Source: Psychroflexus planctonicus | Lineage (GTDB): Bacteria; Bacteroidota; Bacteroidia; Flavobacteriales; Flavobacteriaceae | Length of the DNA stretch: 64,000 nucleotides | Assembly (NCBI RefSeq): GCF_014640195.1 | Contig: NZ_BMGM01000012.1 | Location: forward strand, 1 to 64,000 | Direction of reading: 5' to 3' | In this document: one piece after another, positions 31,760 to 34,143 of the stretch | How the letters are laid out: each line of letters opens with the position of its first letter | Numbering within the stretch: position 1 is the stretch's first letter | Program-made: the position numbers and the translations under genes | The notes under the pieces: generated by a model | The model's input: only the letters and a program-made list of their open reading frames with translations | Databases searched by the model: none | Told to the model about the DNA's origin: nothing

Positions 31760-32689
31760 GTGCATTATCCTTTAATTCATTTAGATTTTCCAGACCGAGA
31801 ATACAGCAAACTGATTGATGATGCTTTAAGATATGCGCTTCTTTCAGCTCCATTTACCGTAGACCGAATGGCTTTGCTTGGTAAAAAGGAAAAACATCAA
31901 GCTACCACTCAACGCATTTTTAATATTTTTAAAGGAAAACTAGCTGAATCATTATTCGAATATTTTTGTCATATCAATGCCTTACAAGCAGATTTTGATG
32001 TTTGTACAACTCCTTATTATCAAATTGATAAACGGGATTTTAGCTATGGAAACCTAGAATTTGACATCAAAAACAACTTTATATATCATGCGGGAGATTT
32101 CTTTTCAGATTATAAAAAACTACCTGCATTAATTCCAAATCGGTTTCCAAACGATCAATGGGATTCCAGATTAAAACCATTTATAAAGCAAGAAGTGGGA
32201 TATATTTTTTCATTTATGAAAGCAGCAGGTTTACATAACCAAAAACGCGGGAAGTATTTTGTTGAACTAAAATTGACAAAACAACAAACCGATTTCATTC
32301 ATAGTTATTTCATGAAATACCAAGGTTTGCCACAAAACGAAGCTGTTTTTAAAGCTGAAAAATACATACATGAAATATTGAAATCTGAAGAACTTTCAGA
32401 CCTGTATAAAATTCATTTTTATCCAAAGTTGGTTGTCGCTGGATCTGCAGATAAAATGCATTGGGATGTATTTAAAAACATAGGTCCATTTGAAACAGAT
32501 AATCATTTTCAAAATGATCCGTTTTCCAACTGGTATTCCAAAGTTGGCAATAGAAAAAGTATTTCATTTTTAAACGGCACCATCTGGGGAATAATTACCA
32601 ATAAAACACTTCCCGTTCAGTTTTTAAATCCCATTACCAAATTGTTTCCCAAGTTAAAAAGTCAACTAGTAGGAGGAAAGTGGCTTTAG
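31760..32689 (+). CDS. PD-(D/E)xK-like nuclease candidate, partner of the adjacent DNA methyltransferase
   Basis: 309 residues from a GTG at 31760 (the nearest upstream ATG, 31744, runs into a stop). Residues 59-63 GKLAE and 90-104 (D..RD ... LEFDIKNN) give the pattern Glu, Asp, then D102-x-K104, which fits a PD-(D/E)xK restriction-type fold. No other domain is recognised. The gene ends inside the last 4 bp of a convergent DNA methyltransferase gene, a classical arrangement for type II restriction-modification. The match to the nuclease motif is by eye only; a different kind of DNA-binding protein is possible. Confidence 0.5.
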   Translation: MHYPLIHLDFPDREYSKLIDDALRYALLSAPFTVDRMALLGKKEKHQATTQRIFNIFKGKLAESLFEYFCHINALQADFDVCTTPYYQIDKRDFSYGNLEFDIKNNFIYHAGDFFSDYKKLPALIPNRFPNDQWDSRLKPFIKQEVGYIFSFMKAAGLHNQKRGKYFVELKLTKQQTDFIHSYFMKYQGLPQNEAVFKAEKYIHEILKSEELSDLYKIHFYPKLVVAGSADKMHWDVFKNIGPFETDNHFQNDPFSNWYSKVGNRKSISFLNGTIWGIITNKTLPVQFLNPITKLFPKLKSQLVGGKWL

Positions 32690-34143
32690 TTTTTCGGCTT
32701 TTGAAAAGTCAAACAATATTGATGAAAAGTATTGGAAACAAAAGTGTTTCCGTAGCCGTAAGGAGCTAAATTAATATCGTCTTGAAGCCAGAAAACTTCA
32801 GGAAGCAAGATTAAATCTTTTTGTAATAAATGTCCTAAATCGTATGCAAAGGGATAATTTTTTCCTTTCTTTTTAATGTTTTTGACCACAATAGTAAAGT
32901 AACCACCAGGTTTCAATAATTTGATGAGTTGCTGATAAATTTCAACTAGGTTTTCAATAAATAATCTGTAATCTGCTATATTTCCTAAATCTAATTCGTT
33001 ATTCGAATAGTTAGTTGGCAAGCCATTTTTTATTCGTTTAGCTTGATTTTCAGCTCCAGCCATATTCAACATGTCCCAATACGGTGGCGAAGTAAAGATG
33101 TAATCTATTTCAGGAAAATCAGAAGTTTTTATATCTCTAGCATCTTTTTGAAGCAACTTAAAATCTACATGTTTGGGAATTTCATCAAAAATGGCTTGTT
33201 GCTCTGGGTTGAGGTAATTCTTCAAACGTTCTTGGGCAATTTCATAGAAAAACGGACTCAATTCGGTGCCATAGGCATTGCGTTCATTTTGTAAAGCAGC
33301 CAATTGTGTTGAAGCTGTTCCCGACATGGGATCAAAAACAGCATCGTATTTTTTGGTGAAAATGGGTAAAAAAAGTTCAACCACTTCTTCAGGGAATTTG
33401 GCAGGGTGCAGAACTTCTTTTTTATTTCGTCTAGGCGGTTTTATAATGTGCCAATTGCTAATTTTATTTTCACTTTTAACCACGCCAATTTCTTGAGTAT
33501 TCTTAATGAAAAAATCGGTTTCATGAAACTGTCCATAATCTACACCAGAATTCTCATCATTCCTAAAGTATAAAGCATAATAGACATTTGCAGCGGTAGA
33601 AAAATGAGTGTTTGACGGTTTTTTTTCTTCAGCAGACAAACAAGCAATTTTTTCATCTTTAAGCGTGTAAATTTCAGCTATACGTTGGCTTAAATCCCAT
33701 GCTTTGGGCATATAGGTTTCGTTTAAAAAACAATTTTTAGTAAAAACACTTAAAAATCTACGGTGAATCAAATAGGGTTGAAGTTGCTTTGCAAGCTTGA
33801 AAATAGTTCTGTTTAGTTGAATTGCTTCATCTTTGTCTTGAAGTGCGAGGGCTTCATCTACAACATCTATTAATACAAATTGAATGCTGGTTTCACCTGA
33901 AATGGAATTGACTTCCGTTAAAACTTGCGCACCTTCTTCTTTAGCAATATTTTTGAATAGCTTTTTCTTTTTTTCATTTCCATGAAAAAATACAAGAGGT
34001 GGATGTTCATCCCAATCAAATTTCACAAAAAAGCGAATATTCTTTCGGTAGGTTTCAGCAATATCATCTTCTAGGTACCATGATTTTTGAAAAGGAAGCC
34101 ATTCTTTAGATGAAATATTATTAAACCGGTTTCTGCCTGCCAT
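32686..34143 (-). CDS. Site-specific DNA methyltransferase (SPPYW type)
   Basis: 485 residues. Motif X HPAKFPEEVVELF (246-258) is followed by motif I DPMSGTASTQLA (271-282), then motif IV SPPYW (352-356) and the LKPGGYFTIVVKN region. This order (X-I-IV) is that of amino-methyltransferases; the TSPPYW form is common in N4-cytosine and N6-adenine enzymes. The 240-residue N-terminal half is family specific and may recognise the target. It has its own promoter (34160-34187). The convergent gene at 31760 may be the matching nuclease. If not, this is a solitary methyltransferase. Confidence 0.85.
   Translation of the reverse strand: MAGRNRFNNISSKEWLPFQKSWYLEDDIAETYRKNIRFFVKFDWDEHPPLVFFHGNEKKKKLFKNIAKEEGAQVLTEVNSISGETSIQFVLIDVVDEALALQDKDEAIQLNRTIFKLAKQLQPYLIHRRFLSVFTKNCFLNETYMPKAWDLSQRIAEIYTLKDEKIACLSAEEKKPSNTHFSTAANVYYALYFRNDENSGVDYGQFHETDFFIKNTQEIGVVKSENKISNWHIIKPPRRNKKEVLHPAKFPEEVVELFLPIFTKKYDAVFDPMSGTASTQLAALQNERNAYGTELSPFFYEIAQERLKNYLNPEQQAIFDEIPKHVDFKLLQKDARDIKTSDFPEIDYIFTSPPYWDMLNMAGAENQAKRIKNGLPTNYSNNELDLGNIADYRLFIENLVEIYQQLIKLLKPGGYFTIVVKNIKKKGKNYPFAYDLGHLLQKDLILLPEVFWLQDDINLAPYGYGNTFVSNTFHQYCLTFQKPKN

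Follow-up and report, generated by a model that had tools for sequence, protein, structure and literature searches.

Two convergent genes in the window, the whole 64,000-nucleotide stretch of Psychroflexus planctonicus DNA analysed here, very probably form a type II-like restriction-modification system, a reading that we hold at a probability of about 0.8. One gene encodes a DNA amino-methyltransferase (MTase) and the other a 309-aa candidate endonuclease, referred to below as the nuclease, which belongs to a family that is unrecognised by the searched libraries. Restriction-modification is by far the best explanation suggested by the sequences. In this model, the C-terminal half of the MTase would modify a particular DNA site of the host chromosome, placing the methyl group on an exocyclic amino group. 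The cognate endonuclease would be the 309-aa protein, a Mg-dependent PD-(D/E)xK enzyme that would cut this site wherever the methyl group is missing.

Table 1. Features of the convergent gene pair, in window coordinates.
Feature	Position	Strand	Remarks
Putative restriction endonuclease gene	31760..32689	+	309 aa, GTG start
DNA amino-methyltransferase (MTase) gene	32686..34143	-	485 aa, ATG start
Tail-to-tail overlap of both stop codons, TTAG	32686..32689	.	4 bp
Degenerate MTase-like domain within MTase	33550..34071	-	~residues 25-198; hhalign N-half vs C-half
Catalytic MTase half	32689..33414	-	residues 244-485; order X-I-IV

The genome that contains the window comprises 3.1 Mb in 34 contigs. 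The original prediction described two genes that converge with a 4-bp overlap, and this arrangement is exact (Table 1). The pair is flanked by parE-/parC-like and glpQ-/proC-like genes (named by eye), and the same flanks are found around a second copy in Psychroflexus salis (G009, NZ_BMGL01000005.1). The P. salis copies align over their full length, with identities of 59% for the nuclease and 76% for the MTase. At the three codon positions, the identity between the two species is 0.67/0.78/0.49 in the nuclease gene and 0.79/0.90/0.55 in the MTase gene, a profile that has the pattern of purifying selection. Together with the full-length alignments, this pattern indicates that both genes are real and not chance ORFs. 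As in other restriction systems, divergence is faster in the nuclease than in the MTase. The G+C content of the nuclease gene (32.4%) and of the MTase gene (33.5%) is close to that of the window (33.0%), so base composition does not point to a very recent import. No other defence gene adjoins the pair in the window (by eye), and a type III or BREX arrangement was set aside for this reason.

The MTase is readily identified. It matches the Pfam family N6_N4_Mtase with 68.8 bits, above the cut-off of 26.7, as well as many PADLOC type II MTase models. Both SAM-binding and catalytic motifs of an MTase are found in the protein, as originally predicted: motif X (HPAKFPEEVVELF, residues 246-258), motif I (DPMSGTAS, residues 271-278) and motif IV (SPPYW, residues 352-356). 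In alignment A5, D-P-x-x-G-T is present in 7/7 rows and TSPPYW in all six of the seven rows that reach it. An SPPY(W) motif favours m4C, and on this rule our guess is that the methylated base would be m4C. Among PDB sequences, the catalytic half is matched best by the putative modification methylase TTHA0409 (2zie/2zif/2zig, 8.3e-30 by profile). An AlphaFold2 model of the MTase has a mean pLDDT of 44.8, with residues 51-90 in blocks of 72-88, and the fold matches of such a poor model carry limited weight. For residues 301-485 of the model, TTHA0409 (2zie_A) is again the top match (Z 9.0, rmsd 6.0, 121 aligned), level with other MTases, NNMT 7ehz among them.

The 240-residue N-terminus had been predicted to set the specificity of the enzyme. 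This proposal is reshaped rather than confirmed by our results, as a degenerate MTase domain seems to make up most of the region. The profiles of the N-half and the C-half align in hhalign with Prob 97.8 (E 7e-13, 91 columns), compared with a maximum Prob of 0.8 in 50 column shuffles and 0.1 for the reversed profile. The MTase contains, in these terms, a second domain homologous to its catalytic half, and the aligned stretch of the N-half corresponds to the region following motif IV. The catalytic-half profile also matches residues 98-192 of the MTase ORF of genome G933. The N-terminal domain keeps neither motif I nor SPPY (by eye). The N-terminal 228 residues alone have no Pfam match, and the N-half profile has no credible match among PDB sequences. 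In the low-confidence model, residues 20-164 match SAM-MTase folds with Z 6.3-7.2, among them MnmM 8h1a (Z 7.2, rmsd 3.7, 120 aligned). Values of Z under 8 may reflect just a common arrangement, and the sequence result is therefore the main evidence for an MTase-like domain. In an MTase encoded on a Haloferax plasmid (see below), the opening motif (KEW...KSW) directly joins motif X, whereas ~210 residues lie between the two in the window MTase. In view of this difference, the extra domain looks inserted, or like the remnant of a fused second MTase. It might read DNA, or might have no such role.

The 309-aa protein was originally described as lacking a recognised family, and this description holds: searches of Pfam, NCBIfam, PADLOC, PHROGs and PDB sequences gave nothing credible for it or for its relatives. 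Several matches within the family were set aside. These comprise PDB sequence rows for Twinfilin, KEOPS Pcc1 (down to E 0.0077), Ino eighty subunit 2 and matrilysin; four Pfam families, each matched by a single member at 0.05-0.14; a NOMO1-like match; TIGR00957 at 0.17; phrog_5018, matched by a short form of the protein at 0.0053; and phrog_10308 and phrog_10859, matched by the G933 nuclease. Residues 178-235 of the G933 nuclease (L094:75-923) also match RTasYodC, a reverse-transcriptase-associated model of PADLOC, with 22.7 bits and E 1.4e-5, which may be chance.

The sequence features attributed to the 309-aa protein, namely the GTG start, GKLAE (residues 59-63) and D102-I-K104, are all present. 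Its N-terminus carries the motif YA-x-x-S-x-P-F-T. In alignment A12, E63, D93, D102 and K104 are invariant in 8/8 long forms, a count that includes the window protein and a broken copy from genome G714, aligned up to its stop. Judged on sequence, this invariance is more than chance. The PD-(D/E)xK pattern consists of a helix E, a D and then DxK on the next strand, and the spacing and context of the residues in the nuclease fit it. The conserved D and the (D/E)-x-K are found in all eight long forms and in the Haloferax relative, which keeps D93, D102 and K104 and has Q in place of E63. A DVKT version of the DxK motif is shared by the Haloferax relative and the short forms. The AlphaFold2 model of the nuclease, obtained with only 3 sequences in the alignment, has a pLDDT of 37. 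Foldseek returned 22 matches to this low-confidence model at E ≤ 10 and 0 at E ≤ 0.001, with no recognised nuclease among the 22. So poor a model does not verify the putative nuclease fold.

An intact long-form nuclease gene and a full-length MTase gene converge in five loci: the window, P. salis, G739, G520 and G933. The genes overlap by 4 bp in the window, P. salis and G739, and are separated by 1 bp in G520 and by 24 bp in G933. In these five pairs an MTase gene is thus linked to a candidate endonuclease gene, as in type II systems. In G486, both genes are truncated by contig ends, the nuclease at the start of its contig and the MTase at the end of a different one; their orientations are those expected if the assembly had split a convergent pair. 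The co-occurrence that the original prediction called for is accordingly kept in four other genomes and compatible with a fifth. Both G486 contig ends (L004:4185-5354 and L022:347-1501) carry an AAA-type ATPase gene, DUF4143-like by eye, beside the nuclease and the MTase. The five convergent loci span three neighbour sets (Psychroflexus, G739/G520 and G933); they are not all independent, since G520 and G739 share their order and neighbours. Identities of the two proteins are broadly, but not perfectly, parallel in the sequences compared. Next to the values for P. salis given above, G486 and G933 are 49% identical in the nuclease and 54% in the MTase over the parts present. The window nuclease is nearer to G486 (46%) than to G739 (38%), and the N-terminal MTase region of the window is 39% identical to G486 and 43% to G739.

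There are exceptions to the linkage. The nuclease of G1215 appears intact although the 13 kb read there contain no MTase, and two Kozakia plasmids have the MTase and no nuclease on the plasmid. In G714, the nuclease gene contains an in-frame TGA (L031:4513-5304), no MTase is seen at the locus, and no MTase match was reported in the genome at E ≤ 1e-20. The G714 locus keeps the neighbours found in G739 and G520, which are thioredoxin-like, RadC-like and reductase-like genes (by eye). A broken nuclease without an MTase is the remnant to be expected from an addictive restriction pair, though one case cannot fix the order of the losses.

The nuclease family is rare and patchy. It was found in 2/100 related genomes (the window genome and P. 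salis), in 1/395 genomes of a phylum sample (the window genome only), in 4/395 genomes of a class sample around G486 (G486, G520, G714 and G739), in 3/12 genomes from the order of G739 (G520, G714 and G739) and in 4/393 genomes from the order of G486 (G486, G933, G1215 and G1219); the nuclease profile grew between searches, and these rates are not strictly comparable. A scan of genome contigs gave 2 nuclease loci. Viral contigs contained no relative when scanned with the nuclease alignments and with the short form, and a single short match of 28% when scanned with the MTase. With tblastn, the window nuclease had no match in plasmids and phages, neither the G486 nuclease nor the short form had one in plasmids, and the Haloferax protein retrieved only itself from plasmids.

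MTase matches (E ≤ 1e-20) occur in 5/395 genomes of the same class sample. Those of G486, G520 and G739 include the N-terminal domain, and those of G784 and G512 cover the catalytic half only. The three genomes with the N-terminal domain are all among the four with the nuclease, for which the chance is 4e-7 assuming independent genomes; this assumption is violated, as G520 and G739 share order and neighbours, and linkage is better argued from how many separate contexts the pair occupies. Among the 100 related genomes, some MTase match is found in 11. It is full length only in the window genome and P. salis, and the other nine have partial matches only.

Two other loci of G784 drew our attention. 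At L043:7248-11134, the gene after two MTases encodes a protein of 755 aa that has 4Fe-4S binding motifs and an EIKS stretch (by eye) and might be an iron-sulphur restriction enzyme. At L043:4161-6282, an adenine MTase (by eye) precedes a DUF6996/DUF6997/DUF7226 protein that contains an IEAKN stretch; these two may form a further restriction pair.

Within the genus, glpQ was considered as a synteny anchor and had a match in 18/27 genomes. At 16 of these 18 loci, neither the MTase, proC nor parC was present in the flanks read, and parC was therefore taken as the anchor instead. It was found in 26/27 genomes, and within the ~1.5 kb read beyond parC the pair is present only in the window genome and P. 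salis; among the other 24 parC loci, L089 ends inside parC and L075 ~340 bases beyond it. A whole-genome search likewise found the nuclease in only two of these 27 genomes.

Remote relatives of the nuclease also lie near MTases, on a Haloferax plasmid, in a relative of a Bacteroidales MAG and in streptococcal phages. On the Haloferax lucentense plasmid pSVX82-3 (L025:4851-9878), an MTase and a nuclease relative of 462 aa lie in one gene row, with a UvrD-type helicase that carries a PDDEXK_1 domain between them. The MTase is 44% identical to the window catalytic half. The 462-aa protein was detected by hmmsearch with E 1.9e-12 among 1,423 ORFs, with no match among the same ORFs when shuffled. 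Its hhalign comparison with the nuclease gave Prob 96.8, and 96.5 in a repeat, against a maximum of 0.7 in 40 column shuffles. The three-gene row looks like a separate archaeal defence cassette. A term search of an archaeal survey (PMC10609329) found neither the word helicase nor Haloferax lucentense.

In G1219, a 178-aa short form follows D12-class MTase genes. It was detected by hmmsearch with E 4.4e-6 in the whole genome and 9.6e-9 among the ORFs of three loci. Short and long forms align in hhalign with Prob 95.4 (maximum of 1.6 in 40 shuffles) over 75 columns that stop just before the DxK strand; the hmmsearch match reaches this strand. The connection of short to long forms is the weakest of the remote-relative links. 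Homologues with 56% identity to the short form are found in four Streptococcus constellatus phages, which are nearly equal in length and so probably represent one lineage. In Streptococcus phage Javan105, the short-form gene converges on three MTase genes, one of them encoding a 26% relative of the window MTase. The Javan105 region (L097:228-7743) contains an RloC-annotated gene, two unknown proteins, one of which is the short-form relative, and three DNA MTases.

Several known systems can be compared with the pair. The pair shares with type II PD-(D/E)xK systems a separate, linked amino-MTase gene and a protein of ordinary REase size with D...DxK. It differs from them in that no sequence relation of its nuclease to any library family was found, and in the extra degenerate MTase-like domain of its MTase. 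The review PMC4081073 gives 31 kDa for a typical type IIP subunit, describes the genes as usually closely linked, assigns 69% of 289 characterised enzymes to PD-D/EXK and notes that REases of unrelated specificity are generally without mutual sequence similarity. M12.MhoVII, as described in PMC12898733, likewise has two MTase-like domains in one chain beside a restriction gene; both of its halves are active MTases of different classes, whereas the N-terminal domain of the window enzyme is without motif I and SPPY. HVO_A0006 of Haloferax volcanii is an archaeal PD-(D/E)xK protein discussed with DNA methylation in PMC4389544. It is described there as a type IIG fragment with PD60-x14-E75-A-K77, while the H. 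lucentense relative is a separate 462-aa gene; going by this description, identity with HVO_A0006 was set aside. In a limited literature search, none of the titles and abstract openings seen describes this pair.

Other explanations of the locus account for parts of the evidence. The nuclease-like protein may be modification-dependent (type IV-like) or act independently, its linkage to MTases reflecting the habit of genes in defence islands. The apparently intact G1215 copy with no MTase nearby would suit such a protein, as would the helicase with PDDEXK_1 that separates MTase and nuclease in Haloferax and the placement of the Javan105 short form among several MTases and an RloC-annotated gene. 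We nevertheless consider this unlikely, given the convergence in five loci with three neighbour sets and the decay of the nuclease in G714, where no MTase was found. It is still less probable that the 309-aa protein is no nuclease at all and assists the MTase in regulation or by binding DNA. Residues E63, D93 and D102-x-K104 are invariant in the long forms, and the DVKT version recurs in the Haloferax relative and the short forms, which speaks against this role even though the protein cannot be placed in a recognised nuclease family and lacks a confident fold.

A solitary MTase with the nuclease beside it by chance is the least credible of these explanations and can almost be dismissed. The Kozakia plasmids, which have the MTase alone, are in keeping with it. 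The linkage data strongly contradict it: convergent pairs are conserved among different neighbours, and the nuclease and the full-length MTase occur in the same two of the 100 related genomes, the nine others having a partial MTase only.

Within the preferred restriction-modification reading, a more specific picture can be offered tentatively. The nuclease family, which extends over Bacteroidota, a haloarchaeal plasmid and streptococcal phages and lies outside the searched libraries, might combine an N-terminal YA-x-x-S-x-x-x-T-x-x-R motif (K in G1215) with a fused PD-(D/E)xK core. In Bacteroidota, its partner MTase might read DNA through a catalytically dead N-terminal MTase domain, so that one chain would divide the labour in the manner of catalytic/non-catalytic MTase dimers.

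The restriction-modification reading provides a testable function for proteins that are unrecognised by the searched annotation libraries. The nuclease family is a possible source of new restriction specificities, and the degenerate domain makes it possible to study if an MTase copy that has lost its activity can take over DNA recognition within a modification enzyme.
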